Shown here: positions 4,017-43,734 of the stretch, one piece after another | How positions within the stretch are numbered: the first letter of the stretch is position 1 | How the letters are laid out: each line of letters opens with the position of its first letter | Assembly (NCBI GenBank): GCA_945871005.1 | Contig: CAMBUJ010000004.1 | Span: 1 to 48,919 of the forward strand | Origin: Opitutus sp. GAS368 | GTDB lineage: Bacteria > Verrucomicrobiota > Verrucomicrobiia > Opitutales > Opitutaceae | Length of the DNA: 48,919 nucleotides | Direction of reading: 5' to 3' | Notes under the pieces: generated by a model | Told to the model about the DNA's origin: nothing | The model's database searches: none | Seen by the model: only the letters and a program-made list of their open reading frames with translations | Position numbers and translations under genes: made by a program

Positions 4017-4066
4017 CTTCTGTGGTTGTTGTTATTCTGATAGTGGTTTCTTCGTTTCGTCGGCGG

Positions 4067-8511: not shown

Positions 8512-8539
8512 CTCTTGATCATGAGGGTAAACCTTTTGT

Positions 8540-13237: not shown

Positions 13238-13265
13238 TTTTAATATTCCCTTGATGGAACTTTCT

Positions 13266-15527: not shown

Positions 15528-15712
15528 ATTCGCGCAAAAAAGGGGGTATTATTACACAATTAATCATCCAACTTCGGACAATCCGAAACAAAGACTGAAA
15601 TCCTACACAGAATCATTTTCGTGCACCATCCGCATTTGTTAGGATGCAATCGGCTTTACTTACCCGAAACGCGTTTTAGGCGGGTGCGGGTTTCAGTGGG
15701 CGGGTGGGCGTA
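15517..15712 (+). repeat. Promoter-region repeat copy A (direct repeat with 17319-17524)
   Basis: Both copies share gcggagtgttcatattcgcgcaaaaaa..., ...caccatccgcattt.ttagga..., and ...acccgaaacgc.tttt...gggtgggcg. Confidence 0.75.
15600..15644 (-). promoter_or_regulatory. Shared palindrome + -10 element, upstream of the GH92 operon (site 6)
   Basis: Gene orientation: TCCTAACAAATGCGGATGGT-N19-TAGGAT. Same 45-bp layout as five other promoters in the window. Confidence 0.75.
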
Positions 15713-15799
15713 CACGGTAATAGTGATGAGCTTATCCCTGCGGGGAGGCAATAAAACCCAAGGCGGTCGGAGCGGGGATGTTTTGATATAGTTCTACAC

Positions 15800-17155
15800 T
15801 CATAACTTGGCAACACCCCCCCGCGGAGCCCGGTTAAACCAACCGTAGAACGCTATGACCACAAAACAAATCAACGGCAGGAAAAACGAAAAGCGAGTGC
15901 TTGAAAGTGTGAAAAAACCGAAGTTGAAGGCACTAAGGTCCATAATCGCACCTTGCAGCGGAGTCATAATACAACCGCCGCCGATTGCGAGAATCAGGCC
16001 GGCAGAGCCAAGTTTGGCGTCCTCACCCGTGCCTTCGAGCGCTATGCCGTAAATAGTGGGGAACATGAGCGACATACAGGCCGACACGCCGACCAGGCAA
16101 TAGAGCCCGGGAAGACCGTGCAGAAAGATGGTTCCGGCCGTGAGAACTCCAGCGCCCACCGCCAAACCCGCGAGCAAACGCCCTGGGCTAAAATATTTAA
16201 GCAGGTAGGTGCAAATAAACCGGCACGAAACAAAGATCGCCATCGCGATGATATTGTAGGTTTGCGCGTCGGCTGCGGACATTCCAAGTTCGTTAACCGC
16301 ATACTGGATTATAAAAGTCCACAACATGATCTGGGCACCAACATAAAAAGCCTGAGTTACTACGCCCCAGATAAAATGCGGTTGTGACAACAGGCGCTTT
16401 ACTGTCGGCCCGGCGCGCAAGTTAACTTCACTGCGCTTAGCGGCGACAGGTAACTTTATAAAGGCAAACACGCCCATCATCACCAAAACGACTAAGCCGA
16501 GCGCCACATAAGGCCCGACTATCACGTCGAAATCAGCGGACTGGATTTTGGCGAAGGCGGCCGGATCGCTCACCGCCAGCGCACGACGTGCATCCTCGGG
16601 GGTCGTGTCGAGTTTGGCGAGGATAAGATTGCGCGCGACCAGCATGCCGGTGATCGAGCCGAGTGGGTTAAAGGCTTGAGCAAAATTTAGCCGCCGCGTC
16701 GCGGTTTCGGGCGCGCCCATAGACAAAATGTAGGGGTTGGCGCTCGTCTCCAAAAACGCAAGGCCGCAGGTCATGATAAAATAAGCTGCTAGGAAGGCCC
16801 CAAACAGCATGGCGTTACCCGCCGGAACAAAGAGCAGGCAGCCAATCGCGTAAAGCGCGAGCCCGACCAACAATCCTGCGCGGTAGCTGAACCGTTGGAT
16901 GAAGAGCGCCGCGGGCACAGCCATTACGCAATATCCTCCATAAAAGGCGAACTGCACAAGAGAGCTCTCGAAATTGGAAATCAGTAGGATATTCTTAAAT
17001 GCCGCCACCATCGGGTTGGTGATGTCATTGGCAAAGCCCCACAACGCGAACAGTGAAGTAACAAGTATAAAAGCAAATAAGTAATTCCCCGGGATGACAG
17101 GGGCAGACTTGGCGGGTGGTTTTAATACGGTAGGAGTCAGGGTTTCGTTTAGCAT
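15800..17155 (-). CDS. fucP: FucP-like L-fucose:H+ symporter family MFS permease
   Basis: MFS protein with LFALWGFANDITNPMVAAFKNI and QFAFYGGYCVMAVPAALFIQRFSYRAGLLVGL, typical of FucP. Adjacent to a GH29 fucosidase operon. Confidence 0.85.
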   Translation of the reverse strand: MLNETLTPTVLKPPAKSAPVIPGNYLFAFILVTSLFALWGFANDITNPMVAAFKNILLISNFESSLVQFAFYGGYCVMAVPAALFIQRFSYRAGLLVGLALYAIGCLLFVPAGNAMLFGAFLAAYFIMTCGLAFLETSANPYILSMGAPETATRRLNFAQAFNPLGSITGMLVARNLILAKLDTTPEDARRALAVSDPAAFAKIQSADFDVIVGPYVALGLVVLVMMGVFAFIKLPVAAKRSEVNLRAGPTVKRLLSQPHFIWGVVTQAFYVGAQIMLWTFIIQYAVNELGMSAADAQTYNIIAMAIFVSCRFICTYLLKYFSPGRLLAGLAVGAGVLTAGTIFLHGLPGLYCLVGVSACMSLMFPTIYGIALEGTGEDAKLGSAGLILAIGGGCIMTPLQGAIMDLSAFNFGFFTLSSTRFSFFLPLICFVVIAFYGWFNRAPRGGVAKL

Positions 17156-17318
17156 GTTTTCAAGCGATGGGCCGGTTTGGCCCGTGATTTAGCAACAGTC
17201 GAGACAGTGGAAGTGAAAAAATTAAGGCTTAAAAGGTCTTTAAAGAATCATTTTTGTTCTTTTTAAGTGGCGCTGCAAACCAGCCGCAAACGTGCTGATA
17301 CCAGTTTCAGTTTTTCAT

Positions 17319-17524
17319 GCGGGGAGTGTTCATATTCGCGCAAAAAAAAGGCGTTATTATACAATTAACTATCCACCCTAGAACAATCCATAACACAATG
17401 ACTGAAGATCAATCATACGTTAAATTACGTTCGTCCACCATCCGCATTTCTTAGGAGGCCAGCCCGATTACTAACCCGAAACGCTTTTTTTTTAGCCAGG
17501 TGCCGGTTTGGGTGGGCGCTTGGT
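17319..17524 (+). repeat. Promoter-region repeat copy B (direct repeat with 15517-15712)
   Basis: See copy A. It lies upstream of the fucP-like gene. Confidence 0.75.
17412..17456 (-). promoter_or_regulatory. Shared palindrome + -10 element, upstream of the fucP-like gene (site 7)
   Basis: Gene orientation: TCCTAAGAAATGCGGATGGT-N19-TATGAT. Confidence 0.75.
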
Positions 17525-17663
17525 CGAACATCGCAAATGGCATAAGCTCAGCCAGACGGGACTGGTGACATAATAAAGCCATCGCCCCTGCACTGATCGA
17601 CATGCGGGACACTGGTGCATGCCGATCAGTGCCCATTTGACTAATTGAGTACTAAAAAGCATC

Positions 17664-20171
17664 CTAATCGCTAATCAGTTGGAACCGGAACTCGCGCCTC
17701 AGTGGTGAGGAAATGAGCGCTTCGACGTTTTTATATACTCCCGGGGTCAAGAGGTTAAACGTAATCTCCCAAGTGCCGGTTTCAGCATTGAAGTCACATT
17801 GCCAAAAGTCGTTTCCAATAACCGACTGGTCAATTTTCACCCAAGTCTCCCCACGTTTCTCTTCCACTACAGGGCGGCGGTAATCGTGCAGGCCGACGAA
17901 GGTGACTGGAACGGGTCCCACGCCACCTGTTAAATGGAACGCCGCACGGTTGTCCTTGGCTCTAATCCGGAGGGGGTAAAGCTGTTCGACCTCACCTACT
18001 ATGGCGTTGGCAGCGATGCGATTGCCAGCGGCTTCTCGTAAAATCATGCGGGAATCGTTGTCGTACTCGGTCAGCGCTTGGCGGAACAGGGCGTTAGGGC
18101 CGCCGTAGTTGTCCACAGAACGGGGTATATAAATACGCTCGAGGTCTATTTCCACGTAGTCGCCTGATTTTAGACAGGTGACCTCAGGTGGAGGCACCAG
18201 TTCGAGAATCGAGACCTTGTTGGTTGCACGCCGCTCTTGAAGGTAAGGGACTGCAACCGGGTTGCCGTTCAGGACTGCTTTCCATGAACGAACGATGAAC
18301 CCATGATTGGCCGGCTTATAGTCGGTATCGGCAGGGCCGTTGGTGACCGCCGCCCATGGCATAAGGCCGTTAAGTGGCAACGGGGTGCCTACTATGCCTC
18401 GCTGCCCCGACGCTTGCCATTGGAGCACAGGTTTCGGTTGGTCCGCATAGCCGTAGGCGAGCCTATCGCCTTGGCTATAACCGTAACTATCACCGGCCTG
18501 TTGATAAAAAACCAATCGGCTAAATGCGGTATCCTTTTTAACGTCGATACGAATGTGGTGCAGACCTCGGGTGCAGTCGTCAGCGCGGGGTAATCCGGCG
18601 CTATAGGAGAATGCAATGGCCCCGTCGTCGGTGAGGCCGGCGAAGGTCGCTTCGGTAAGATTCGGGCCGTAGCGGGTGTAGCGCACCCGCATCCGGCTGT
18701 GGGTGTGGTTGATCGCATTATTATCTAAGTAGCGTAACACGGAGCCTCCGCCGACGTTAATGGCCCAATCGCGTTCGCCCTTGGCGTTGAGTGCCCACAG
18801 CGGTCGAGCATCGGTGAAGTCATTCTTCGTTAAGGCATTTTCCATGTCATAGCACAGAGCCTCGCCCCGATTACCAAGCGCGGCTTCGTCCCATTGCTGC
18901 CCCCCTATTGTTCCATAGCCGATGACGGAGAGTTGTGAGTGGCTGGCCGCCGGCATGCCGCCCCAGTTTTCCCCAACCATCATCAGTTCGCACTCATAGG
19001 TGCTCTTGGCTGGCACGGTGAGCATCGTCAGACCGTGAAACCAGGGGCCAATAAACGCCCCTGGGGTGTCTCTATGCCAATTCTTGGAAAGCTGCACCGG
19101 GATACCCAGTGGATTGCCATCCAAGTCGCGTAATACCGCGGAGATGCCGGGCAGCGAGAAGGGTGTGCCATCGAAGTTGAGCCGAACGACCTGGGCTTCG
19201 GCGGTGGGGTTTTCTAACCGTAGGCGAGCGCGCATGCGACCATCGTCACCACGTGTACCTTTTGGAATGGCGACACGGTAAAAGCCCGGGTCCTTCTCGT
19301 AACTTACTGGCAAGCTGGGTAATGCCGGTTCCAGCCCGGTGGCCGTAACGACCACCGGGCTTGCCCCGAAGGAGGCAAGCTCGCGCATCTGGGCAAGTAC
19401 GTTATTGGCCAGCGGATAAATAATCAGCCCCACGGAGACGCTGTCGCCTTGCTTCCACTTGGCCACAGCGGTGCGTGCGGACAAGGTTGCTGTTTCCGGG
19501 TTAAGCGTGAGCGCAGCGGTGGCCGCGCTGGGCTGGACGATGAACCCCGAACCATCGACCGCAACAAGGGCCTGGACCGAGCCATGGGAGACGAGCCGAG
19601 CATACGCGGCCGGTAGCTTAAGGGTCATTTCCAAAAAACCCGCCGTGACCGCCTCGGTCGGAGAGACGCGCAAGACCAACGAGAGGCGATCGGGCCAGGC
19701 AGCGGTCTCCAGGCCGGTTATTGTAGAGTCCGTGGTGATGCCTCCGGGGATGACACCTTTTTGCCAACGACGTTGGAAAAACTTGCCGCTTTCCACGACT
19801 TGAGTGCCGAAGAGTTTATTGCTCTCCGGCGCGACGGCATGCACGGAGCCGTTTCCACCTACGTTGCAAGTTAGCATCACAGGCAAGTTGGGTTCCACAC
19901 CCACTTGGAGGGCAATGGCCTCGGTGGGGGCCACGGCCAGCAGCCCCAGAGCCGTGGGCCCAAAGGCGGAGTGGTTGTAATTGAGCACATAACGGGACGT
20001 CTGGATGCGGAAATCAGGCGACTGCAATCCGTTGACCCACCCCATGTAACCATAGTCTTTGACGTTGGCGAACGGTGCTGCGGGTGGTGGACTTTTGGCG
20101 TTAGCCGTTAGGGCCAGCGCCGCGAGGACGAATCCGGAGATTCGCCAATTCTGAAGGAAATGATAGCACAT
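17664..20171 (-). CDS. Large secreted protein of unknown function (835 aa)
   Basis: Long ORF with a signal peptide-like N-terminus, 30 bp downstream of the GH29 gene on the same strand. I recognise no catalytic motif or family. Confidence 0.85.
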   Translation of the reverse strand: MCYHFLQNWRISGFVLAALALTANAKSPPPAAPFANVKDYGYMGWVNGLQSPDFRIQTSRYVLNYNHSAFGPTALGLLAVAPTEAIALQVGVEPNLPVMLTCNVGGNGSVHAVAPESNKLFGTQVVESGKFFQRRWQKGVIPGGITTDSTITGLETAAWPDRLSLVLRVSPTEAVTAGFLEMTLKLPAAYARLVSHGSVQALVAVDGSGFIVQPSAATAALTLNPETATLSARTAVAKWKQGDSVSVGLIIYPLANNVLAQMRELASFGASPVVVTATGLEPALPSLPVSYEKDPGFYRVAIPKGTRGDDGRMRARLRLENPTAEAQVVRLNFDGTPFSLPGISAVLRDLDGNPLGIPVQLSKNWHRDTPGAFIGPWFHGLTMLTVPAKSTYECELMMVGENWGGMPAASHSQLSVIGYGTIGGQQWDEAALGNRGEALCYDMENALTKNDFTDARPLWALNAKGERDWAINVGGGSVLRYLDNNAINHTHSRMRVRYTRYGPNLTEATFAGLTDDGAIAFSYSAGLPRADDCTRGLHHIRIDVKKDTAFSRLVFYQQAGDSYGYSQGDRLAYGYADQPKPVLQWQASGQRGIVGTPLPLNGLMPWAAVTNGPADTDYKPANHGFIVRSWKAVLNGNPVAVPYLQERRATNKVSILELVPPPEVTCLKSGDYVEIDLERIYIPRSVDNYGGPNALFRQALTEYDNDSRMILREAAGNRIAANAIVGEVEQLYPLRIRAKDNRAAFHLTGGVGPVPVTFVGLHDYRRPVVEEKRGETWVKIDQSVIGNDFWQCDFNAETGTWEITFNLLTPGVYKNVEALISSPLRREFRFQLISD

Positions 20172-20201
20172 GGGGCGGGTGCGGGTTAGACCATTCTGGG
20201 G

Positions 20202-21992
20202 TTAACGAACGGGGTTGAAGCGTATAGCCTGAAGGCTTGATTTTTCGGCGTCACCAGCAACCAGTGAGACACCGATTTTGTACTTACCTGGCTGAGCGAA
20301 ACTCAAAATCCCAGACGGATAGGCTTTATAAACCGGGGTGGCAGCCTGTTCGTTCTGGATTTTCGCACCCGCAGACGTGCTCACCGCCCAAATCGGCCGA
20401 CCTTCACCCTTATAAATGAGTTCCACGAAATAATCACCGGCTTGCGCAACATCGACGCTCCATTCAGCGACACCGTCGGCCTTCCACTTGGTGATTTGCT
20501 GGGCGGACTTCCATTCGCCGAATTTCTCCATCCACCTGATGGTACTCGACTCGGCATTGTGCGCCACGGCAAACTCGGCGTAATGGGTGGTCGGGATATT
20601 CGGCTGAATGGCTAGAGTGGCGTCCACCTTGACCGTATCGGCGAGTTTGACCTCGATGAGGGCGGCGATTGCCGAGGTGGTAGCCACTGAGGCGGACTCT
20701 CCGTCGATTACCGTCCAAGTGCCCAGTTTGGCCACGGGTAGTTCCACTTTTTGGCCGTTCGCTTGATGAAGCGTGACCGATTTGATGTTACCCTCAAGGC
20801 CGGAGAGGTAAATTTTACGGTCGGAGGGCCAATCGAAGACAACAAGATTGAGCGTGTTGCCTGTACGAGTGATATCCCCCCAAGACTGAGCACCGCCCCA
20901 CGGGGAAGCTTTCGCACCATATATAACAGAAGGATGCTGTTTTACCCATTGACCCGCTTCGAGTAGATACTGCTTGGCCTTCGACGGAATGAGACCGTTG
21001 CTGTCCGGACCGACGTTGAGCAAATAAGCGCCACCTCGGCCCACCGTGGAAACGAGGCGATGTAGAATCTCGCGCGGAGTCTTCCAATTCTGGTCATACC
21101 ACGCATAAGCCCACGAGTCATTAGTGGTATCAGGGGCTTCCCATAACCCACTGTGATTCTGGCGTGGCACCTCCATATCGCCTAGGCTCTCGAAGTCACC
21201 CATCCCTTGGCCGATCCGAGAGTTAAGAAGTGCATTCGGCTGTTTTTTCAACACGAGCTCAGCGAGCTCCTTTATTGCTGCCTTTGGCATGTTGCCAGGC
21301 GTGTCGAACCAAATAAATGACAGAGGTCCATAATTGGAGCATAATTCATCGACCTGGGGATAGCATTTCTCGCGAAAATACTGTTCAAACGTTGCGGGCG
21401 TTCCGTCGGGGCGGGTCTTTGAACCACCCTGGGCACCGGCAGAGGTCCAATCCTGAAAATGAGAATAGTAAAAACCAAAGCCCAGACCGGCTTCGCGGCA
21501 AGCGTCGGCAAATTCCTTCATCGGGTCACGATGAAACGGCGAGGCATCGACTATATTGAAAGGATGTTTTGACTTAAACATTGCGAAACCCTCGTGATGC
21601 TTCGCGGTGATTACGATGTACTTCATGCCCGCTTCTTTCGCGGTGCGAACGATCTCTTTGGCGTCGAAACCCTTGGGGTTAAAATCTTTGGCAAGCGCCA
21701 TATAGTCAGCGTCGGAGATATTCATCTGGCGCTTAATCCACTCGCTTATGCCGTAAAGGGTCTTGCCCTGCCACTTGCCCTCGAGGCCGGAAAACAGGCC
21801 CCAGTGAATAAACATACCGTATTTACCATCGCGCATGAGTGCAGCGCGTGGGCTGTTTTCAACACCATCTTTTGTGCTGGTATCACCCCACATCTTGTCC
21901 ATCGATTCATCGGCGTGGACAGAGGCAAGGGGAGCGGCGATAGTCACCGCGAGGAAGGTCAATAACGGACGTATATATTGGATGCTTTTCAT
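20202..21992 (-). CDS. GH29-family alpha-L-fucosidase
   Basis: RDGKYGMFIHWGLFSGLEG, YIVITAKHHEGFAMFKSKHPFNIVD, FADACREAGLGFGFYYSHFQDW, LLNVGPDSNG. Has a C-terminal accessory domain. Confidence 0.93.
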   Translation of the reverse strand: MKSIQYIRPLLTFLAVTIAAPLASVHADESMDKMWGDTSTKDGVENSPRAALMRDGKYGMFIHWGLFSGLEGKWQGKTLYGISEWIKRQMNISDADYMALAKDFNPKGFDAKEIVRTAKEAGMKYIVITAKHHEGFAMFKSKHPFNIVDASPFHRDPMKEFADACREAGLGFGFYYSHFQDWTSAGAQGGSKTRPDGTPATFEQYFREKCYPQVDELCSNYGPLSFIWFDTPGNMPKAAIKELAELVLKKQPNALLNSRIGQGMGDFESLGDMEVPRQNHSGLWEAPDTTNDSWAYAWYDQNWKTPREILHRLVSTVGRGGAYLLNVGPDSNGLIPSKAKQYLLEAGQWVKQHPSVIYGAKASPWGGAQSWGDITRTGNTLNLVVFDWPSDRKIYLSGLEGNIKSVTLHQANGQKVELPVAKLGTWTVIDGESASVATTSAIAALIEVKLADTVKVDATLAIQPNIPTTHYAEFAVAHNAESSTIRWMEKFGEWKSAQQITKWKADGVAEWSVDVAQAGDYFVELIYKGEGRPIWAVSTSAGAKIQNEQAATPVYKAYPSGILSFAQPGKYKIGVSLVAGDAEKSSLQAIRFNPVR

Positions 21993-22047
21993 GTGTGAGA
22001 AAAAATAAATGTGGGGTTATTTAAGGCGTTAAGTTTAGATTTGAGGG

Positions 22048-22092
22048 AAAGTAGAGGAGCGCGGTGGTAGTACTTAATACCATTTCGCAATA
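22048..22092 (-). promoter_or_regulatory. Degenerate candidate copy of the shared promoter element, upstream of GH29
   Basis: Gene orientation: ...TATTGCGAAATGG... with TACTTT at the expected distance. The right half-site is poorly conserved. Confidence 0.25.
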
Positions 22093-22513
22093 AAAGAAAT
22101 ACAAACGAACCGGTTTAAACGCTAATGAACGCTAATAGCCGCCAATAAAAAACCAAGGATTCGCAACTTTTGGATTAGGGTATCTTAGCGTTATTTAGTG
22201 GTTAAAAACCCGTCGTTTGATATTGAGCTGGGAAGTGACCTCAAGGGCTGATCATTTGTTTTTTAATGCAACCGCAGCCACGTCGTCACCGGGCCAATTG
22301 GGGCCGATGACACCCACCGTCAGGGCGCACGCTGCAATTGCCTCGGACAAGGCGCCAAGGTCATTGACTGACGGCATGACCCGTAAATCTGCAGGCAAAG
22401 AAAGCGGTTTTAATAGTTGCGAACTAAAACCGAGTGGAATCACAAGTCGGGCTAGCGGGACCATAAAAAGTAGAATTACCTAAAAGGACCGAAGAGGGCC
22501 GTTGTCACACATC

Positions 22514-24019
22514 TTATTTATCAAAATTTGCCGCACCTTTGAGAGGTAAAGGCACCCCCTTATCGCCACCGTGCTTTATCATCGTAGGGAAAACCCCATC
22601 CCACCATTTATCGTAGGCCGATGCCAATTTGGAAGTTAACTCGACATGCCTGGACGCGATATCTTTTTGGCAGGTCATATCCTCCTTCAAATTAAATAAT
22701 GCCCAATGACCATGCGGTGTCACTCCCCAGTGCAACTGCGCGTTGTCTTTTGTATATGTCGCGCGCGTCGCGCCCTTTTCAACGGATCGAAGCGTGGTGC
22801 ACTGGCTTGAATAAAGATTACAAGCGGGATCGTCGCACGGCTGGCTTCGCACCAAGAGATAGTCGCCGGTTTGCACAGCAGCCATGGCATACTTGTGGGC
22901 GGCAGCCATGCCACTGGGCCAACGACCAACGTGATGAAACAGTATTCGATCGTCATGCCATGATTGTTTGGCGGGTGATTCGAGCAATGGCCTCAGGCTA
23001 AACCCCTCCAGCTTGGGCCCAAGTTCAGCCGGCAACTTGACTCCCGCTATATCGCAGAGCGTTGGCAACACATCAAGATGTGCCGTCAAATTGTTGACTG
23101 CATGGGGCTGCCATTTTCCAGCCCATTGCCAAAAAGACATAGCGCGACCCCCACCCTGCCAAATCGTGCACTTAGATCCCCTCATCCCGGCATTATAGAC
23201 GTCCAACCCGTGCGTTTGACCATTATCGTTCATGTAGATAATAATGGTATTCTCCTCGAGTTGTTTTTCGTGTAAATACTTCATCAACCTACCGAGGTTA
23301 TAATCGAGATTGGCAACCATACCTAGGAACTTAGCCTCATCTGGATCCACCTTGCCCCGAAACGGTGCAACGAATTCGTCGGGCGCTGCCAGGGGTGCAT
23401 GCGGCGAGTAGGTGGCGAGATAACAAAAAAACGGTGAGCCCTTACTCTCGTCTATAAAGGTCATCGCTTCGTCAAAGAAAATGTCCTCCCGGTACCCCTT
23501 ACGTTTATCACGCTCACGCTTACCGTTGCGAATAAATATAGGATCAAAATGAACATTCGGTCCCCCGACGTTGGTGGAGCACCAATCAAACCCGCGCTTA
23601 TCCGGCGCATACGCGCCATCATTGCCGAGATGCCATTTACCAATGAACCCGGTATTATAACCGGCCGACTTGAGTAATTGCGGTAAAATCACCGCGTCTT
23701 TGTTCATGTGCTCACGCGGGTCGGTGGTATGCGTCACCCCACTTGCAAATTCATGCATTCCCGTCATTAACACGGCTCGAGTGGGTGAACAGGATGGACT
23801 GACATAGAACTTTTCAAAGCGCACGCTACTATCATGCAGCTTATCCAAGTTGGGCGTCTTCAGTAAAGGGTGTCCGTGCCTAGCCACATCACCATAACCT
23901 TGATCATCAGACAGGATAAAAATAATATTAGGTTTTTTGGCAGCAGGAGATTCATCTGCGAACAACGCAGCCAGCGGGCACAGCATAAATGCAAAAAAAT
24001 AAGCGCAGGGGGATTTCAT
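22514..24019 (-). CDS. Secreted S1-type sulfatase
   Basis: KPNIIFILSDDQGYGDVARHGHP, CSPTRAVLMTGMHEFASGVTHT, IIYMNDNGQTHG. Confidence 0.92.
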   Translation of the reverse strand: MKSPCAYFFAFMLCPLAALFADESPAAKKPNIIFILSDDQGYGDVARHGHPLLKTPNLDKLHDSSVRFEKFYVSPSCSPTRAVLMTGMHEFASGVTHTTDPREHMNKDAVILPQLLKSAGYNTGFIGKWHLGNDGAYAPDKRGFDWCSTNVGGPNVHFDPIFIRNGKRERDKRKGYREDIFFDEAMTFIDESKGSPFFCYLATYSPHAPLAAPDEFVAPFRGKVDPDEAKFLGMVANLDYNLGRLMKYLHEKQLEENTIIIYMNDNGQTHGLDVYNAGMRGSKCTIWQGGGRAMSFWQWAGKWQPHAVNNLTAHLDVLPTLCDIAGVKLPAELGPKLEGFSLRPLLESPAKQSWHDDRILFHHVGRWPSGMAAAHKYAMAAVQTGDYLLVRSQPCDDPACNLYSSQCTTLRSVEKGATRATYTKDNAQLHWGVTPHGHWALFNLKEDMTCQKDIASRHVELTSKLASAYDKWWDGVFPTMIKHGGDKGVPLPLKGAANFDK

Positions 24020-24179
24020 GGTTAAAAATGCCTAACTTAGGTGAATAATTTATATCAGCAAAAAAGGTGTTCCCTAAGTGCAACTCAATCAGTATATTTA
24101 CATCCAAAATTAGACTGCTATTTCATCAATTAAAGGGGCACTCCAAATGCAGTTAACACGCACCTCAGGTACTCATCTC

Positions 24180-24224
24180 ACAATAACATATTTTCAATTT
24201 CGTGCATACCCTCATTTATCAGGA
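24180..24224 (-). promoter_or_regulatory. Shared palindrome + -10 element, upstream of sulfatase 22514-24019 (site 1)
   Basis: Gene orientation: TCCTGATAAATGAGGGTATG-N19-TATTGT. Confidence 0.7.
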
Positions 24225-24250
24225 TAAAAGTAATGGTACTCCGTTGCGTG

Positions 24251-27037
24251 CTACTCGGCGGTGGCCCAGCCGGCGCTTAGCCGTTCGCCTTCGGGCTCGC
24301 TGAGCGCGGCTTGCGCTGCGGCCAAGCGCGCCACCGGCACGCGATACGGTGAACACGACACGTACGTTAACCCAATCTGGTGACAGTAGCGCACCGAGTT
24401 CGGGTCGCCGCCGTGCTCGCCACACAATCCGAGTTTGATCCCAGGTCGCGTGCTGCGACCTTTGGCAATCGCGATTTCAATCAATTGACCAACACCACTT
24501 TGGTCGAGTGTGGCGAAGGGGTTGGACTTCAAGATTTCCGCCTCCTGATAAGGAATTAAAAAACCGCCTATATCGTCGCGCGACATGCCTAAACAGGTCT
24601 GGGTGAGGTCGTTGGTGCCGAAGCTAAAGAACTCGGCGGTGTGCGCGATTTCGTCGGCGGTGAGCGCACCACGTGGCACCTCGATCATTGTGCCGACCGT
24701 GTACTTGAGGGTCACACCGCGCTCGGCCATGACGGCACGGGCGGTGTCGTGGATCAACCCGACTTGCAAATCCAACTCCTTCTTGAAACCCACCAGCGGC
24801 ACCATGATTTCGGGTTGGGCGTTGGGCACGCTGGCGGCGGCCTCAAAAATCGCCCGCGCCTGCATCACGGTGATCTCGGGGTATTTGATACCCAAGCGGC
24901 AACCACGGAAGCCGAGCATGGGATTAAACTCGGCGAGCGACTGCACGCGTTGCACGATTTTTTCCAGCGGCAAGTCGAGCTTGCGCGCGAGGTCGAGCTG
25001 TTGCTTGTGCGTGTGGGGCAAAAACTCGTGGAGCGGAGGGTCGAGCAGGCGGATGGTCGCCGGCAGGCCGTCGAGCGCGGTAAAAATCCCGATAAAATCA
25101 TCGCGTTGAAAGGGAAGGAGTTTGGCCAGTGCGGCTTCGCGGGCGTGGGCAGTATCGGCCAGAATCATCTCGCGCATGGCGTCGATGCGGTCGCCGGCGA
25201 AAAACATGTGTTCGCTGCGGATCAGGCCGATTCCGCTCGCGCCAAAAGCCAGCGCCTGACGGGTCTGCTCGGGGGTGTCGGAGTTGGTGCGCACGTGCAG
25301 GCGCGTCGCCTCGGCGCACCAGGTCATGAGCTGGTCGTAGTCCTTAAACTTTTCACTCGCGCGAGCGAGCGGGTCGGCGTGCAGCAAACCGGCGATGATC
25401 TCGGAGGGCGCGGTTTTGACCAGACCGGCGTAAACGTGGCCCAAGGTGCCGTCGAGGGAGAGCGCGTCGCCTTCGTTGAAATCGCTCGTGCCGATGCGCA
25501 AGCGTTTGTGGTCGTAATCGATGTGCAAAGCCGTGAGGCCGCACACGCAGACTTTCCCCATCTGGCGGGCGACGAGCGCGGCGTGCGAGGACACCCCGCC
25601 GCGAGCGGTTAAAATACCCTCGGCGGCAATCATGCCGCGCAGGTCTTCGGGCGAGGTTTCGAGGCGCACCAGGATGACTTTTTCGCCCTGGGCAGCGGCA
25701 TGGACCGCGCGCTCGGCGTTGAAATAAATCCTCCCGGAAGCGGCACCGGGACCAGCGGGTAAGCCGGTGGCGAGCGGCGTGAGTTTGGCGAGCTCCCGCG
25801 GATCAAAAACAGGTGCAAGAAGTTGCTCCAGCTGCTCGGCGGGGTTGCGAAGCACGGCGGTGCGCCAATCGATGACGCCGGCGCGGTAAAGATCGAGGGC
25901 GATTTTAAGCGCGGCGGTGGCGGTGCGCTTGCCGTTACGGGTCTGCAACATAAACAGCTTACCCTCTTGAATCGTGAACTCGATGTCCTGCATGTCGCGG
26001 AAATGCGTTTCGAGGATCGTGCGCACGCGCAGCAATTCGGCGTAACAGGCGGGCATTTTATGCGCGAGATCGGCGACAGGCAACGGGGTGCGCACTCCAG
26101 CGACGACGTCTTCACCCTGCGCGTTGAGTAAAAATTCGCCGTAGAACTCGTTGATGCCGTTAGCCGGATTGCGAGTAAACGCCACGCCCGAGCCGGAGGT
26201 TTCACCGGTGTTACCGTAGGCCATAGCCTGAACATTGACCGCCGTGCCCCACTCACTGGGAATATGATACTTGGCACGGTAAACCATCGCGCGGTCGTTC
26301 ATCCACGACCCAAACACAGCACCGGCCGCACCGCGTAACTGTTCCCACGGATCGGACGGAAACGCTTGGCCGGTACGTTCCAAGACGATGGCCTTGAAGC
26401 GGTGAACGAGCTCCTGTTGGTCGGCGGCGGTGAGGAGCGCGTCGTCGATTTCGGCTTGGTAGCGCTCGTGTTTGAGCGAAGCGATGGCGACCTCGAAGGG
26501 TTCGTGGTCTTCATGCGGCCCCTTTTGTACGCCCAGCACGACATCGCCGTACATCTGAATAAAACGGCGATAACAGTCCCAGGCGAAGCGGTCATTCTGG
26601 GTGGCGCGGGCCAAAGCAAGGACGGTCTGATCGTTGAGGCCGAGGTTGAGAATGGTGTCCATCATGCCGGGCATGGACTCGCGCGCCCCCGAACGTACCG
26701 CCACCAGCAGGGGGAAATTTTCCGGGTCGCCGAAGCGGTAACCCATGATTTCCTCCATATTGCGGATACCCGACACGATGTTGGCCTGCAATGAAGCGGG
26801 GTAATTGCGGGCGTTATTGTAATAGTAAGTACACACCTCAGTGGTGAGGGTGAAACCGGGGGGCACAGGAAGCCCGATACGCGTCATCTCGGCGAGGTTG
26901 GCGCCCTTACCGCCGAGCAAATTTTTCATACCTCCGTTGCCCTCGGCTCGGCCGGCCCCCCAAGTGTAGAGGTATTTTGGCATGCCCGGGGTGGCTGGCT
27001 GGTTGCTGCCCGGAGTGAAGGTGGAATTAAACAACAT
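24251..27037 (-). CDS. ppdK: Pyruvate, phosphate dikinase
   Basis: [47 protein letters not shown], catalytic-His region [22 protein letters not shown]-terminal [16 protein letters not shown] and [10 protein letters not shown]. Confidence 0.97.
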
Positions 27038-27091
27038 TTTAAATAAAAGGGATTACGAAAATAAAAAATAAAAAATATAATGAATATATGG

Positions 27092-28306
27092 TTATTTTCC
27101 TTGGTAGTCAGAACTTGTCGTGAGTTCGCCGCTGCTGACGTTTATAAACCAAGCAGTGGCTCCGGCGGGAAGCGCAGCGGAGACACGCCAGTCCTTTTCA
27201 TTTTTAATCACGTCAGCAGGTGACTCGGTCCATTTGCGGTCCCCGGAAAAACCCGTATCCTTGGTGCTGATTAACACGGCTTTTTTGAGTCGTTTTGTAG
27301 AGGCAAACTTGATAACAACAGTGCGGCCTTCAAGTTTCGCGCTTGTTTGAACGCACCACGGTTTTCCTTCGCGCACGACACTTTCGGCAAAAGCATAGCT
27401 GTATGGAGGATTGTAGGCGGCCTGATGCGAATGACCCATGCCAGGGATGAGCGTAACCATGTGAGCGCCTGGAGCGCTGTGGTAACACGCGGCTTGGGCA
27501 TCGAGGGGGAAATGGCCATCCTGCGGCCACGAGTACCACAGCACGGGCATGCTCACCCGATCCATGCGCACCATCGGATCCCAGACCTTGCGGTAGAGAC
27601 TATTGGCAGACAAGGCACGGCCGTACTGATTATCACTGTCGAAAAGATGCCCGCAGCCATAGGTCGGAATCGCAAAGGCAAAACGCGAATCAATGCCGAT
27701 AACCGTGCTCGTGATCACCCCACCCCATGAAACCCCCATGACGCCGACTTTATTTGCGTCTACTTCGGGGAGCGAACGCAGCAATGAGTTGGCTAATATC
27801 GTGTCCGCCACCGCGTGGTACATCCACTGCTCATTGAGTGGTTTTTCCGAGTCGAAATAGATCCCAGAGCGCTTCGGACCCGGCCAGGCATGCTGTTGCC
27901 AATCCTCTGAACTGCTGGAATCTCGCCTATCGGTTTGTCCCTCCACGGCGATACTAATGGCCGCATAGCCCTGGTCATTCCACTTTTTCACCCATTCCTT
28001 GAATGCCGTACCGCCTCCCCCATGTACCAGCACCACACCCGGCACTTTGCCCTTGCTCTTCTTTGGCAAACCCAACCATGCAAAGACCTTGGTCGACTTA
28101 CGCTTGAACGGCAGGGCATCAAAGTAGATTGCCTTCAACCCACCCTCGCCCTCAAACCCCTCCGCTGGTTGGCTTGCGGGTGGCTCGGTGAGTTGGCCGA
28201 GTGCAACCACCTTTTGGCGCTCCTGGTCGAATTCGTCTGCTTGCAGATTAACCAGCGGCGCGAACAACAGAACGAGAAGAGATCTGAATATATATGTAGT
28301 CTTCAT
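27092..28306 (-). CDS. Secreted alpha/beta-hydrolase (acetyl-xylan-esterase or dienelactone-hydrolase-like)
   Basis: GVVLVHGGGGTAFKEWVKKWNDQGYAAISIAVEGQTD, nucleophile elbow GVSWGG, signal peptide. Confidence 0.8.
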   Translation of the reverse strand: MKTTYIFRSLLVLLFAPLVNLQADEFDQERQKVVALGQLTEPPASQPAEGFEGEGGLKAIYFDALPFKRKSTKVFAWLGLPKKSKGKVPGVVLVHGGGGTAFKEWVKKWNDQGYAAISIAVEGQTDRRDSSSSEDWQQHAWPGPKRSGIYFDSEKPLNEQWMYHAVADTILANSLLRSLPEVDANKVGVMGVSWGGVITSTVIGIDSRFAFAIPTYGCGHLFDSDNQYGRALSANSLYRKVWDPMVRMDRVSMPVLWYSWPQDGHFPLDAQAACYHSAPGAHMVTLIPGMGHSHQAAYNPPYSYAFAESVVREGKPWCVQTSAKLEGRTVVIKFASTKRLKKAVLISTKDTGFSGDRKWTESPADVIKNEKDWRVSAALPAGATAWFINVSSGELTTSSDYQGK

Positions 28307-28379
28307 TTCAAAAAGGGGGGAGTGACGATTCGGACCGTGAGTTAATGGACAATTCGTTTTAGGGGAAGGAACACGAGAG

Positions 28380-28425
28380 ATCCTAGCATTTTATCGGGGG
28401 GCGTGAACGCCCTCATTTTTGAGGG
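28380..28425 (-). promoter_or_regulatory. Shared palindrome + -10 element, upstream of the hydrolase-ppdK unit (site 4)
   Basis: Gene orientation: CCCTCAAAAATGAGGGCGTT-N20-TAGGAT. One base longer than the other sites. Confidence 0.65.
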
Positions 28426-28544
28426 TATTACGGCACAATTGTGAATGGACTTTAGCGTTTTAGTAAAAAAACCCTAAAACTTAACCCGGCTCTACAACGC
28501 GTTATGTAATTCACGAGTCAAATTCCAGGTGTTCAGCAGCAAGC

Positions 28545-28604
28545 AAGTAGCGCAGACTTCCAGTCTGCTTTTTACCCTGAGCAGACTGGAAGTCTGCGCT
28601 ACTT
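28545..28604. repeat. REP-like perfect 24-bp inverted repeat with a 12-nt loop
   Basis: AAGTAGCGCAGACTTCCAGTCTGC / loop tttttaccctga / GCAGACTGGAAGTCTGCGCTACTT. A degenerate half copy with shared flank lies at 33541-33600. Confidence 0.9.
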
Positions 28605-28769
28605 TTCGAAACGTTACCTACGTGCTGTGCCCCAGCTCGTCCGCAAAGTGCCGCTAAAACAGCTTAGGCCATGATATTTACTGATTCCCCTAAATGGCAT
28701 TGTTCCCTGATTAGTAGGTGAGCTTGCTAAAAATGTTGGACCGGCGTTTTTCAACCGATATTGGCCAAG

Positions 28770-28814
28770 TCCTCATAAATAAGGATGCCGCACGGCGCGC
28801 AGGAGTGCTAATAT
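28770..28814 (+). promoter_or_regulatory. Shared palindrome + -10 element, upstream of the second sugar permease (site 2)
   Basis: TCCTCATAAATAAGGATGCC-N19-TAATAT. Confidence 0.72.
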
Positions 28815-28836
28815 GAGAACAGCACCGAAATCCACT

Positions 28837-30282
28837 ATGAAACCCATGAATCCAGAATCCACACAAACCAAATGGGGGCAATTTATCCCGTTGGTCATCG
28901 TCTTCTTTTTCTGGGGCTTCGTCGCCGCAAGCAACGACATCCTGATCCCCGTCTTCAAGAAGGCGTTTGATTTGACGCAAGGTCAAAGCCAGATGGTTTC
29001 GCTCGCGTTCTATATTGCCTATACTGTGGGTTCGATCATCTATATGATCACTTCCTACTTACTAAAGGCGGACTTGGTTAATAAAATTGGCTATAAAAAC
29101 AGCCTGTGCATTGGTCTCGGCATCTCGGCACTGGGCACCCTATTGTTTTATCCGGCCGCCAACACCCACTCTTTCCCGTTGATGTTGTCCGGGTTGTTCA
29201 TAGTGGCACTGGGCTTCTCGCTTCAGCAAACCGTTGCCAACCCCCTTGCTATTGCGTTGGGGCCCATTTCCAATGGCTCGCAACGCTTAACTTTGGCGGG
29301 CGGCATCAATAATTTGGGCACAACGATAGGCCCATTGATTGTCAGTTTTGCCATTTTTGGCGGGAATGCCGGTGTTGATACCAATATCAGCATCGAAAGT
29401 GTTAAAATCCCCTACCTCTGGCTGGGGCTGGCCTTTGTTGCGGTTGCCATTTTTCTTAAATTTTCATCCCTTCCCGATCGACCCCAGTTGATCGAGGAAA
29501 TCGAAGTCTCTGGTCACCCCGTGCGCAGTTCCGCCTTAAAGTATCCGCAGCTCGTGTTGGGAATGATAGCTATTTTCCTCTATGTCGGCGTTGAGGTGTC
29601 CACCGCCAGTAACTTACCCGATTATATGGAGAAAAAACTGGGCTTCGAGCTTAAGGATATCGCTCCTTACATCTCCTTATATTGGGCTAGCTTGATGATC
29701 GGTCGTTGGACCGGCGCAGTCGAGGCGTTCACCCGTGACATGAGCCTGCAGAAGATCCTACGCTTTGTGGCGCCGTATTTGGCTTTCGCTACATTCTTGG
29801 CGGTTAATGCCATCGCTAAGCATGACCTGACTCCGTTCTATGTTTACGGTCTCGTTGTGCTCGTGCTCGTTGCCGCCGATATCGCCAGCAAGGGTAATCC
29901 CGCTCGCATGTTGTTCATATTTTCGATATTGGGTGCCTTGGCATTGATTATCGGCATGTTAAGCACCGGAATGGTAAGTGTGTATGCGCTAACCAGTGTA
30001 GGGTTGTTCTGCAGTACCCTGTGGCCGTGTATTTTCACACTCGCGGTGAGCGGTTTGGGCAAACACACCAGCCAAGGCAGCAGTTTTTTAATCATGATGA
30101 TCATGGGCGGCGGCTTAGTTAGCTGGGCACAAGGTGAAGTGTCTGGCATAACCGGCATCCAATATAGTTACGTGGTGGGCGTTGCCTGCTTTGCTTATTT
30201 GATTTTCTACGCCTGGAAAGTGAGTGGCATCTTGAAGAGCCACGGTATTGATTTTGATCGAAAAATCGCCGGCGGTCATTAA
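28837..30282 (+). CDS. FucP/GluP-type sugar MFS permease
   Basis: WGQFIPLVIVFFFWGFVAASNDILIPVFKKAFDLTQGQSQMVSLAFYIAYTVGSIIYMI. I prefer the start at 28837 over 28813 because the latter overlaps the predicted -10 box. Confidence 0.85.
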   Translation: MKPMNPESTQTKWGQFIPLVIVFFFWGFVAASNDILIPVFKKAFDLTQGQSQMVSLAFYIAYTVGSIIYMITSYLLKADLVNKIGYKNSLCIGLGISALGTLLFYPAANTHSFPLMLSGLFIVALGFSLQQTVANPLAIALGPISNGSQRLTLAGGINNLGTTIGPLIVSFAIFGGNAGVDTNISIESVKIPYLWLGLAFVAVAIFLKFSSLPDRPQLIEEIEVSGHPVRSSALKYPQLVLGMIAIFLYVGVEVSTASNLPDYMEKKLGFELKDIAPYISLYWASLMIGRWTGAVEAFTRDMSLQKILRFVAPYLAFATFLAVNAIAKHDLTPFYVYGLVVLVLVAADIASKGNPARMLFIFSILGALALIIGMLSTGMVSVYALTSVGLFCSTLWPCIFTLAVSGLGKHTSQGSSFLIMMIMGGGLVSWAQGEVSGITGIQYSYVVGVACFAYLIFYAWKVSGILKSHGIDFDRKIAGGH

Positions 30283-30415
30283 TTGATACGCCGATTTTCT
30301 GAAACCAGCGCGGCGAATGACGCGATTACATCAGTACCGATAGGGTGAAATAGTAGGGCAATCACTTTCAAAGAATCAGATTAACACTCCAAGCCAGTTT
30401 GATCGGTCTCGGACT

Positions 30416-30657
30416 CGAACCGTTAACCACTGATTAGCACTAATGGGCACTGATAAAGCTACGGAATGGACGATCGTTTAAGTTCATCAGCGCCGGTCTA
30501 TGATTGCTCGTATCAAGCTGAATTCGTTGCATCTAGGTAATCCATGAAGGCGGCAAACCTTAGAAGGCGGGGCAAAGCAAGGGCACCTGCTTTGCGGTTG
30601 GAGTGGTTTGCTTTTTTATCAGTGGCGATCAGTGCTCATCAGTGGTTAACCGGTTCG
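30416..30657. repeat. Intergenic composite element with about 42-bp imperfect terminal inverted repeats
   Basis: Left: cgaaccgttaaccactgattagcactaatgggcactgataaa. Reverse complement of right end: cgaaccggttaaccactgatgagcactgatcgccactgataaaaa. A related single copy lies at about 43619-43657. Confidence 0.7.
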
Positions 30658-30841
30658 TTGCCTTGTTCGACTGAGGCGACCCACTGAAACTGTCGAGGAA
30701 CCATAAATAGCCAGGTAAAATATTAGGCGCAAAGAACATGCGTAATCTCCAATCGACTTAAAAAGTCTGCGGTTCGGTGTTATAGCTGAGGGAAAGCCCA
30801 CCAATGTATCGCTATTTGTTTCCTTCGCCTATCCCTAGATT

Positions 30842-31037
30842 TTTAAACTAGAGCGTGTCTTTGAACTAAACCAGCCCAACGCTGAGGCTCTAAGAGTTAA
30901 GCGAGAAAGAGCACTGAGCCAGCGTTGCCCTCGGCAGCACGGTCCGCTGGCCAGCCTCTGCCTTGGTCGCCTTGGCCGCGCACTCTTTCTCGCTCACGCT
31001 GGGACGAGATCATTCCCAGACACGCCCTAAGTTTAAA
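30842..31037. repeat. MITE-like element with imperfect terminal inverted repeats and an internal hairpin
   Basis: Left tttaaactagagcgtgtct; right agacacgccctaagtttaaa. Internal arms agcgagaaagagcactg and cgcactctttctcgct. Confidence 0.6.
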
Positions 31038-31067
31038 CCCAGATACGCCGGGGCATCACAGTCGCAC

Positions 31068-32876
31068 TTAAGAGCGGCGACGGCGATGGACGGCGAAACC
31101 CAAGATGCCCAACCCGGCTAAAGCAGCGTAGGTGGCCGGCTCGGGGACGGCAGAGGCGGTAACCGACAAAACGCCATTACCTTGATCGAAGGAGTAGGTG
31201 TTCAAGCCATCGATGCCGGTCCAGATATCACCGGAGCGGGTCATAGCGGTGGCAGCAACCGAAACGTTGGCAAAGTCACCCGAGCTGCTGCCAAAGTCGA
31301 ACAGGTCGTAGGATTCCGTCTGGTTAATGTTGTAGCTGGTGAAGCTGACGATTTTCAGCGTGCCATTGAAGGTTATCTTACCACCTACGGTGATCTTGTC
31401 AAAGTCGGTGCCGGCCACCCCGTCATTGCCCGCCAACTCCATCGTGGTGGTGCTGGTGGCGTTGAGGGTCAGGTCGCTGGTGAAGGACAACACCCCGGGG
31501 CTATTGCCGGCGGCGAGGAACGCGCCGTTGGCGATGGTGGTGGCGCCACCGACCGTGCCCGAGCCGCTGAGGGTTGCGCCCGAGGCGACGGAAACTGCGC
31601 CAGTGGAGGCCGACTGATCGCCATTAATCAAAAGCATACCTCCACTCACGGTTGTCAGTCCCTTGTAGGTGTTGTCGCCGGCGAGAACCCAGGTGCCGGT
31701 ACCGCTCTTGGTAAGGGAGAGAACATTGTCGCTGTCGCCCACTCCACCGGTGTTGGAAATCACCCCGGCCATGGTGTTGGCCCCCGCGTTACTGCCCTCC
31801 AGCGTCAGCTTCTTGGCCACCCCAGCTGTCGTGGCGGTCTGGGAGGCAAACGCGCCGCCGAGCGTCAACGTGCCGGTGCCGGAGCTGACCACGATCGCTC
31901 CGCCGCCAGTCACGGCTCCGTTAATATCAATACTGCGATCGTCAGCATCGGCAGTGGCACTGCCGTTGTAAGTCAGGGTAGCGGTAAGGGCAACATTGCC
32001 CATCGCAATGTTGCCGGTGCCGTTGGAACCGATGCCGCTGTTGCCCAAACTCGCTACAGTCAGCCCACCGTTGAGGATACTAACTATACCCGTATAGGCG
32101 TTGGTTGTACTGCCGAAAGTTTGGGTGCCACCAGCGCTTTTATTGATATTAATTTTCCCCTTGGTTTCCAGGATGGCGCCTGAAAAACTGCCGCTAATAT
32201 TGCCAACAGACAGCGTAACAGCTGTGCCGGAGGTGTTCGCGACACTGCCTGCGCCATTCAAGCTCGTTTGGTTAGTATTGAACCCATTCATGTCCCACGT
32301 GGCTCCAGATCCAATTGTAACACTAGTTCCGTGTTGGCCCAGCGCCGTAGTACTGCCTGACTTAACCGTGCCTGCGTTGATACTGAATTTGTTAAACGTA
32401 TTGGCCCCGCTGAGCGTCAACGTGCCGCTGCCCGTCTTGGTGATCTGCGTACCCGCGGCTGCCGTGATGACGGAGCTAATGGTCGCGTCGGCGTTCGCCG
32501 CGATGTTACCGGCGGCACCAAAGGTCAGGGTACTTGCGCCCGATACGGTGTAACCCGCGGTATCAAACTGCAACCCACCCACGGTGATGCCCGTACCAAG
32601 CGTCACGGTGCCTGCCGTCCCGCCGAAGACAGCGGTGTCGTTATTGGCGTTAGTCCAAGCGGTGGCGCTGCCAGCCGTTGCCGCAGTGCTCCAGTTGGTT
32701 GTCGAGCTGTCCCACGTGCCGAGGCCGCCATCAGCTTCGGCGGTGCTATCCGTGCCGTCCCAGAATAAATTCGCAGCATGCGCGGGGATGATCGGGTTCA
32801 AGGTGAGTGCAAGGAGCGATGCGGCCAGCAGGTTAGGACTGGTGCGTGGAATCTTAATTGGCGATTTGGATTTCAT
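31068..32876 (-). CDS. Autotransporter-associated beta-strand-repeat protein with a PEP-CTERM anchor
   Basis: Signal peptide, Gly/Thr/Ser-rich repeats (GTLTLSGANTF, GTWVLAGDNTYKGLTTVSGG), C-terminus VPEPATYAALAGLGILGFAVHRRRRS. Confidence 0.92.
   Translation of the reverse strand: MKSKSPIKIPRTSPNLLAASLLALTLNPIIPAHAANLFWDGTDSTAEADGGLGTWDSSTTNWSTAATAGSATAWTNANNDTAVFGGTAGTVTLGTGITVGGLQFDTAGYTVSGASTLTFGAAGNIAANADATISSVITAAAGTQITKTGSGTLTLSGANTFNKFSINAGTVKSGSTTALGQHGTSVTIGSGATWDMNGFNTNQTSLNGAGSVANTSGTAVTLSVGNISGSFSGAILETKGKININKSAGGTQTFGSTTNAYTGIVSILNGGLTVASLGNSGIGSNGTGNIAMGNVALTATLTYNGSATADADDRSIDINGAVTGGGAIVVSSGTGTLTLGGAFASQTATTAGVAKKLTLEGSNAGANTMAGVISNTGGVGDSDNVLSLTKSGTGTWVLAGDNTYKGLTTVSGGMLLINGDQSASTGAVSVASGATLSGSGTVGGATTIANGAFLAAGNSPGVLSFTSDLTLNATSTTTMELAGNDGVAGTDFDKITVGGKITFNGTLKIVSFTSYNINQTESYDLFDFGSSSGDFANVSVAATAMTRSGDIWTGIDGLNTYSFDQGNGVLSVTASAVPEPATYAALAGLGILGFAVHRRRRS
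31639..32771 (-). repeat. About 1.1-kb passenger-coding segment, inverted relative to 46212-47355
   Basis: Long stretches of near-identical DNA on opposite strands, e.g. ...GGCACGTGGGACAGCTCGACGACCAACTGGAGCACTGCGGCAACGGCTGGCAGCGCCACCGC... Confidence 0.85.
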
Positions 32877-32931
32877 TGGTGTTATTTGCTGAAGTTAAGG
32901 AGCAGCCATGGCGACATTGCTGATCCAGTCT

Positions 32932-32976
32932 ATTAAACCCTATTTCACCAAACTGCGGCATCCTCATTTCTTAGGA
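32932..32976 (-). promoter_or_regulatory. Shared palindrome + -10 element, upstream of the PEP-CTERM protein (site 5)
   Basis: Gene orientation: TCCTAAGAAATGAGGATGCC-N19-TTTAAT. Confidence 0.72.
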
Positions 32977-33257
32977 GTGCATCGAAATGGGGTCACCCAT
33001 TTTGGCCGATATTGAATGAGGGGACATCGGTTATTGCTTGAAGCAGAACACCAAACCTTATCAGGACGATCAGGTTTAAACATACGAGAAATCACCGTTT
33101 TTTCTTTCGTTCTGGTTTTGCCCCCGCCACCGAGTGTGCACCTCCGCAAGACTGGCTTCCCACCCTGTTAATCACCTAAAACATTAACAGACATCAGAAT
33201 TTAAAATCAAACACCCCGGTACCACCTTAAAACAAGGACCAACATCGATCTTGATAA

Positions 33258-33327
33258 CCGCGAAAAAACGCAGGGAACAAATATCAATACAGGTTTTTTT
33301 CTTTGCGCTCCCTGCGTTCTCTCGCGG
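33258..33327. repeat. Intergenic imperfect inverted repeat (19-bp arms)
   Basis: ccgcgaaaaaacgcaggga ... tccctgcgttctctcgcgg. Confidence 0.75.
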
Positions 33328-33437
33328 CAAAACTGCCTTGGTTTTATTCAACACGTTAAATGCTACTGCCCAATCGTTTTGAGTGTGATCGGCAGTTTAT
33401 GTGGATAGGTTATTCCGAAACTAGGACACCGGATTTT

Positions 33438-33600
33438 TAACCGCGAAGTCGAACCAGAGTCTCGCGAAGCGAACCAACCGCAAAAGGCGCGAAAACACGC
33501 AAAACTCGCCGGCGTATCAGGCAATCTCGCCCCGACAACCCTGAGCAGAGTGGAAGTCTGCGCTATTTTTCGAACCGTTACTTACCTGCTTTGCCCGCGC
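33438..33600. repeat. Intergenic 'aaccgcgaagtcg...' repeat plus a degenerate half REP
   Basis: Shares aaccgcgaagtcga.c..gag.ctcgc.aag..gacca with 45343-45410. 33541-33600 repeats the right arm and flank of the 28545-28604 hairpin. Confidence 0.65.
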
Positions 33601-33861
33601 ACCGCCGCATTGTGTCACCACCATCGCTGCGGAACTTCGAAGTTTCAGCTTAGAGCCGTCGTAGAAAGAAAACGACGTTGGCGCTTAATTTTAAACGGGA
33701 TTGTGCCGTAATAGGTTAAAACCGTTATGCCCATTCTTATCTTAATCAGAAGACTGTTCGCTCCTGAAAACCCTGCCTGTAAAAAACCCTTTCACCTTAA
33801 TATTAAACATTTTTGGCACAAATGAACTCATTACCTCGAGCCTACCCGCGAACGGCAGGCA

Positions 33862-33906
33862 TCCCCATAAATGAGGATGCCACTTAGGCAGGGTTAAGTG
33901 TAGTAT
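33862..33906 (+). promoter_or_regulatory. Shared palindrome + -10 element, upstream of sulfatase 33933-35411 (site 3)
   Basis: TCCCCATAAATGAGGATGCC-N19-TAGTAT, within the longer palindrome ggcatccccataaatgaggatgcc. Confidence 0.75.
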
Positions 33907-37667: not shown

Positions 37668-37676
37668 ATTTAAAAA

Positions 37677-42091: not shown

Positions 42092-42096
42092 CTGAA

Positions 42097-42843: not shown

Positions 42844-42855
42844 TCATCCCAATCA

Positions 42856-43500: not shown

Positions 43501-43734
43501 TAGGCAACAACATCAAACTTGTCGGATAACCGCGTGGTCGATTGCCGAAGGTTACCACTCTTGTATCAGTGCACTGAAGGGGTTAACTTGGATCGGGTTG
43601 TTCGATCGGAAACGGAGTTTTTAACCACTTATGGGCACTGATTAACACTGATAAACCAATCCAAGAAGTCTGAACCCAAATGCACCGACACTTTAAATGT
43701 TACTACCTACTAGTAGGCCTAAACGACCCCACGC

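Follow-up and report, generated by a model that had tools for sequence, protein, structure and literature searches.

A candidate NarL-type kinase-regulator pair and its proposed cluster-specific operator set in a sulfatase and glycosidase gene cluster of Opitutus (Verrucomicrobiota)

The hybrid two-component systems (HTCS) of Bacteroidota polysaccharide utilisation loci link sensor to regulator, serve one glycan cluster each, and are present as many paralogues per genome. The candidate regulatory pair described here, from Opitutus sp. GAS368, differs from them in that two ORFs (35658-37667 and 37677-38348) encode the kinase and the regulator separately, and in that the DNA-binding domain is of the LuxR/NarL GerE type, not an AraC-type domain in one polypeptide with the sensor. 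Coordinates throughout are those of the window, by which we mean the whole 48,919-nt stretch of DNA that was analysed.

NarL-family output domains bind, as dimers, inverted heptamers 2 bp apart (7-2-7); the sites used by NarL at napF and yeaR have their centres near -44.5 and -42.5 (PMC4549865). The window pair is like NarL/NarP, and the NarL/FixJ class as a whole, in its receiver plus LuxR/GerE-type domain, in its HisKA_3 partner and in the 7-2-7 layout of its presumed sites near -43, and by domain content the window regulator belongs to this class. It is, however, not an orthologue of NarL (133 bits against NF007935, for which the cut-off is 250). The proposed window operators are spelled differently, around an AAA core and lengthened by outer TA/CA bases; the window kinase has a CBM32-like sensor; and the family has many paralogues with differing operators, whose presumed targets are sulfatase/glycosidase clusters. 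DesK-DesR, VraS-VraR and DosS-DevR are alike in the fold of the kinase core (DesK, DosS) or in regulator sequence (VraR), but differ in sensors, signals, operators and targets. Nearer by taxonomy, in Pontiella agarivorans of the same superphylum, a histidine kinase (PF07730) and a response regulator (PF00072) have been noted near sulfatase/GH genes, a report of neighbourhood only, which gives no operator, geometry or regulator-operator match (PMC10880615). The open-access papers searched yielded no operator or regulon for Verrucomicrobiota sulfatase/glycosidase clusters. We therefore regard the regulon as undescribed, and the family-wide arrangement of private operators as its more surprising part.

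Seven operator-promoter modules in one gene cluster

A first-pass annotation of the window had proposed seven copies of a 7-2-7 palindrome, each at a fixed distance from a -10 box and all pointing towards a gene. When checked in the window sequence, all seven were found in place and in the orientations given, as follows.

Module 1, 24180-24224, minus strand: TCCTGATAAATGAGGG-(4)-N19-TATTGT, upstream of sulfatase 22514-24019; alpha-L-fucosidase 20202-21992 and then an unknown protein (17664-20171) lie further downstream
Module 2, 28770-28814, plus strand: TCCTCATAAATAAGGA-(4)-N19-TAATAT, upstream of a GluP/FucP-like permease
Module 3, 33862-33906, plus strand: TCCCCATAAATGAGGA-(4)-N19-TAGTAT, upstream of sulfatase 33933-35411 and then the kinase and regulator genes
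Module 4, 28380-28425, minus strand: CCCTCAAAAATGAGGG-(4)-N20-TAGGAT, upstream of an esterase-like hydrolase (27092-28306) and a PEP-utilising dikinase (24251-27037)
Module 5, 32932-32976, minus strand: TCCTAAGAAATGAGGA-(4)-N19-TTTAAT, upstream of a PATR/PEP-CTERM protein (31068-32876)
Module 6, 15600-15644, minus strand: TCCTAACAAATGCGGA-(4)-N19-TAGGAT, upstream of the GH92/five sulfatases/GH2 run that extends from 15527 down to 2628
Module 7, 17412-17456, minus strand: TCCTAAGAAATGCGGA-(4)-N19-TATGAT, upstream of an MFS permease (15800-17155); its flanks are duplicated with module 6
Module 6 target transcription unit, 2628-15527, minus strand: GH92, five sulfatases and GH2

The gap to the proposed -10 box is indeed N19 in six sites and N20 in one; some corrections apply. 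The 7-2-7 layout stands but full symmetry does not, the arms being complementary at four to six of the seven pairs when read from the sequence. All seven copies are present, but sites 6 and 7 are 57% identical upstream and 58% identical in the spacer (about 12-42% for other pairs), which identifies them as a duplicated promoter and leaves about six independent sites. The spacing to the -10 boxes is real; the -10 box of site 5, TTTAAT, is poor and not a TANNNT. The flanks of the remaining sites are unrelated, so that the palindrome and the spacing are the only conserved parts. At site 2 the -10 box overlaps the listed ATG at 28813, and the permease gene therefore probably starts at 28837.

Such an accumulation of sites is not expected by chance: TCCTNANAAATGNGGATG with up to three mismatches has 9 matches in the window, against a mean of 1.09 and a largest value of 5 in 100 shuffles. 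A weight matrix built from the seven sites and scanned over the window recovered all of them at 21.7-27.0 bits; the next-best scores were 17.5 (site 3 read in reverse) and then 12.6 and below, so much lower that no other promoter in the window bears the site. With its centre near -43.5 and no good -35, the position would by sequence fit that of a class II-type activator site (-41.5 to -44.5, weak -35). The proposal of a regulon with a putative activator-type site at this centre is well supported, the same geometry recurring at many promoters of the related loci described below.

Our genome-wide statements are based on pattern searches and the stretches examined, in a 3.48-Mb draft assembly that is 92% complete. 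Five of the six matches with no or one mismatch fall in the window, which makes up 1.4% of the assembly (binomial p=3e-9), while each of the five assembly matches outside it, with one or two mismatches, falls within a gene or is followed by none in the next 400 nt. The regulon that had been suggested is upheld as one local to this cluster, and we reject a regulon spread over the genome, as in these searches good sites were confined to the window. Its presumed targets comprise the GH92/five sulfatases/GH2 unit; a pair of MFS permeases, of which one is GluP/FucP-like; and a sulfatase upstream of an alpha-L-fucosidase. The others are an esterase-like hydrolase with a PEP-utilising dikinase, the PATR/PEP-CTERM protein, and the sulfatase that precedes the kinase and regulator genes.

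Three further features of the cluster were observed. The pyruvate-phosphate-dikinase-like protein (24251-27037, minus strand), which shares a glycan-cluster transcription unit with the esterase, matches PPDK_N in three stretches. The protein adjoining the alpha-L-fucosidase (17664-20171, minus strand; 835 aa) has no Pfam or NCBIfam match. Near the contig start, a DDE transposase of IS type (621-2024, minus strand) adjoins the sulfatase operon.

A probable cognate kinase and regulator

No regulator had been named in the first-pass annotation, but a probable one is encoded in the window itself, at 35658-38348. Of the window proteins that were scanned, this pair alone was recognised as a DNA-binding regulator.

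35658-37667, plus strand: probable cognate sensor histidine kinase, 669 aa from ATG (the listed ORF begins at TTG 35523)
37677-38348, plus strand: probable cognate NarL-type response regulator, 223 aa, with recognition helix TVISHVEHIYGKL (T187-L199)

The kinase is laid out as a signal helix, two CBM32/F5-8C-like sandwich domains, a membrane helix, HisKA_3 and HATPase. Its predicted structure (mean pLDDT 81.8) places two beta-sandwich domains ahead of a long membrane helix, and Foldseek matched it to the tandem CBM32 structure 7jnf and its kinase core to DesK. The core domains PF07730 and PF02518 are weak but present and DesK-like in fold, the nearest solved folds including DesK and DosS; NarX and NarQ are among the kinase's weak matches. 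Within the family N589 is invariant and H480 nearly so. The two CBM-like domains are predicted to lie outside the membrane, and with this structure the signal is likely to be a carbohydrate.

The regulator has a receiver (PF00072, 4e-21) and a LuxR/GerE DNA-binding domain (PF00196, 1e-18). Its nearest solved relatives, over nearly the full length, are VraR and NarL, VraR being nearest by sequence, and the phosphorylation-site residues E11, D12, D61 and K111 are invariant in the family alignment. There is no site directly in front of the window kinase gene, which follows the sulfatase gene after a gap of 247 nt. Autoregulation of the pair via module 3 is possible, as judged from this arrangement, and would need read-through across those 247 nt. 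On the other side, the regulator gene overlaps a 1248-aa GspK-like ORF by 4 bp, with more pseudopilin-like genes (N_methyl, XpsI-like) after it (38345-45215, plus strand). This overlap suggests that the kinase-regulator pair may share an operon with a set of minor pseudopilins of a type II secretion-like kind.

Related pairs, their palindromes and the recognition helix

Close relatives of the regulator (E<=1e-45) are limited to a small fraction of the phylum, 15 of 388 genomes, with at least 16 copies in genome G090, 13 of them on its 884,666-bp second replicon, and 12-15 in each of three other genomes. As judged by sequence comparison, these pairs form a family in Verrucomicrobiota, Pontiellaceae included, whose members have palindromes of their own, often just before the kinase gene. 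The geometry seen in the window recurs with them: palindromes with a TANNNT 22-24 nt past the 16-mer numbered 44 against 6.5 expected at the training loci and 8 against 1.1 at new loci, compared with 3 against 1.8 in control chromosome tiles. Outward-shifted arms score better than the strict 7-2-7 (64-65 vs 46), and this stronger geometry indicates a dyad of about 20 bp with outer TA/CA bases, which replaces the perfect 7-2-7 as a description of the whole site.

To find sites before kinase genes we used a rule that was fixed on the first set before its use on the independent set. A site at shuffle p<=0.02 was found in 21 of 49 training upstream regions and in 10 of 23 independent ones, where chance would give about one and about one half, respectively (about 1.4 overall). 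Under half of the related kinase genes thus have a site passing the strict rule; these counts are lower bounds, as a rule requiring a TTT/AAA core misses or mis-registers visible operators (L106, L116 and G090 C2, the second replicon, at 517 kb). L081 and L082, the loci closest by sequence, have just one plausible site each, and L083 has none.

The letters of these operators vary with the locus. We found TATAGGTAAAAATACCTATA at three promoters and on the kinase side in L067, CATCCTCAAAATTGAGGATA at L110, TATCCTGTAAACACAGGATA-like operators at L111, L123, L211 and L212, TGTCCC..GGGACA at L119 and at 520 kb on C2, and TATCAT..ATGATA at L085 and L092. Often a target gene diverges from the kinase-regulator operon, with the palindrome in the gap between them. 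At L106, in genome G089, the operator TATCCTAAGAAATGAGGATA contains a 16-mer identical to that of module 5, TCCTAAGAAATGAGGA, and this 16-mer is the sole exact pattern match in the 3.4 Mb of G089, next to that genome's regulator. Similarly, TATAGGTANNNNTACCTATA is found exactly at three places only in the 4.9-Mb G090, all within 5 kb of its own regulator. PATR and/or PEP-CTERM surface-type proteins recur as operator targets (L067, 4334-7442; L110, 1610-4930; window, 31068-32876), and in two of these cases the gene diverges from that of the kinase-regulator pair.

The second replicon of G090, a complete relative, holds loci L124 to L168 and at least 13 close regulator paralogues, and is similar in size to the Lentimonas fucoidan megaplasmid. 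Palindromes of matching geometry number 45 on it, a density of 5.1 per 100 kb where chromosome tiles have 0.75, and similar palindromes cluster within 20 kb of each other (12 pairs vs 2.2 expected). Proximity of these palindromes to core regulators is only weakly raised (55% vs 43% of upstream regions within 20 kb), regulators being dense on this replicon, and we do not use it as evidence. Same-geometry palindromes also lie on C2 at 4424, 11608, 845968 and 856061, near more distant NarL-type regulators (11850-12485 and 856464-857102), suggesting that the arrangement may extend past the core subfamily.

Operator spelling follows the recognition helix of the adjacent regulator. Operators were taken solely from kinase upstream regions, blind to the regulator. 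Of the 22 non-redundant pairs, 21 came from the fixed score rule; the other is L097, which lay one point lower (shuffle p=0.000). Across these, operator distance correlated with distance in the recognition region, alpha8-9 (Mantel r=0.625, p<2e-4), also when made partial on receiver-domain distance (r=0.569, p<4e-4); shared descent supplies part of this correlation. Among 172 variable regulator positions, correlation with the operator was strongest at 190, 194 and 191, all in recognition helix alpha9, and position 190 aligns with V189 of NarL. The closer a regulator's helix is to that of the window regulator, the more its operator tends to resemble the window sites (Spearman -0.74, p=7e-5): the window helix reads TVISHVEHIY, and regulators with TVVTHV[AG]HIY tend to have the operators most like the window sites.

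On these comparisons, then, the window sites are most probably operators specific to this cluster, and belong with a NarL-type two-component family that has diversified and is undescribed. It also seems quite likely that Verrucomicrobiota, including Pontiellaceae, hold an expanded family of CBM32-like-sensor kinases with NarL-type regulators, of which a single replicon of 885 kb has at least 13 close paralogues. Each pair would read a private 20-bp palindrome at a fixed promoter position and a few helix residues would set specificity, giving an insulated set with a readable recognition code.

A proposed private switch for a glycan cluster, and its alternatives

Computation shows the sites and their geometry, that they are confined to the cluster, that their like recurs next to related regulators, and that helix and operator are associated. 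The reading that we favour, at a probability of about 0.86, is that the seven palindromes are operators of the regulator at 37677-38348, that the kinase at 35658-37667 senses a saccharide and that the regulator activates the cluster, as one of a family of private switches. We infer binding, activation, phosphotransfer and ligand. The kinase would probably sense the saccharide, sulfated and perhaps fucose-containing, outside the cytoplasmic membrane and would then phosphorylate the regulator. A dimer of the regulator would bind the palindrome centred near -43.5, in the 7-2-7 dyad manner of its class, and would recruit RNA polymerase to promoters that have no good -35. Sites of that layout adjoin the family and co-vary with the helix. 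Sulfatases, glycosidases, permeases and the surface protein would be switched on in this way, and so, through module 3, would the pair's own operon. Joint divergence of recognition helix and operator among the paralogues would have given each glycan cluster its own switch. Counting against this reading are the imperfect arms of the window sites, the lack of a site directly before the window kinase gene, the share of related kinase genes, over half, that fail the strict rule, the few sites at L081-L083, and the part of shared descent in the co-variation; in addition, one-mismatch matches are present in G050, a genome without this regulator.

It is improbable that another transcription factor, of LacI, GntR or AraC type for example and encoded elsewhere, uses these sites to control the cluster. 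Such factors use short palindromes too, unlinked control is common for carbohydrate clusters, and an unlinked factor could be absent from an assembly that is 92% complete. However, no further DNA-binding regulator was recognised in the window, the same architecture is found beside regulators of exactly this family, often before the kinase gene, and operator spelling follows the recognition helix of this regulator. Somewhat less probable again is that this regulator does bind the sites but turns the cluster off; NarL both represses and activates (PMC4549865), whereas from a site centred near -43.5, ahead of a -10 box that has no -35, such regulators would be expected to activate and not to block polymerase.

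The constant distance to the -10 box and the lack of a good -35 would also suit an element that is no operator at all but serves an alternative sigma factor as its promoter motif, or acts generally in the manner of a -35. We consider this very unlikely, as such an element would not be expected to be confined to one cluster, nor to vary its letters by locus and yet keep dyad symmetry. The least probable explanation that we considered is that the copies are dispersed short repeats or recent promoter duplicates without regulatory meaning: this accounts for the alike, clearly duplicated flanks of sites 6 and 7, but the flanks of the other sites are unrelated (12-42% identity), the palindrome and spacing alone being conserved, and unrelated palindromes of the same geometry are found at other loci.

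Verrucomicrobiota are important degraders of sulfated algal polysaccharides, and an operator that can be read would allow regulons, and hence candidate substrates, to be assigned to many of their clusters from sequence. The parallel divergence of helix and operator offers natural material for asking how response regulators change DNA specificity while remaining insulated from one another. If the wider, family-level reading is true, Verrucomicrobiota would possess a natural, insulated set of regulators and operators, with its own switch for each polysaccharide cluster and a recognition code that can be read.
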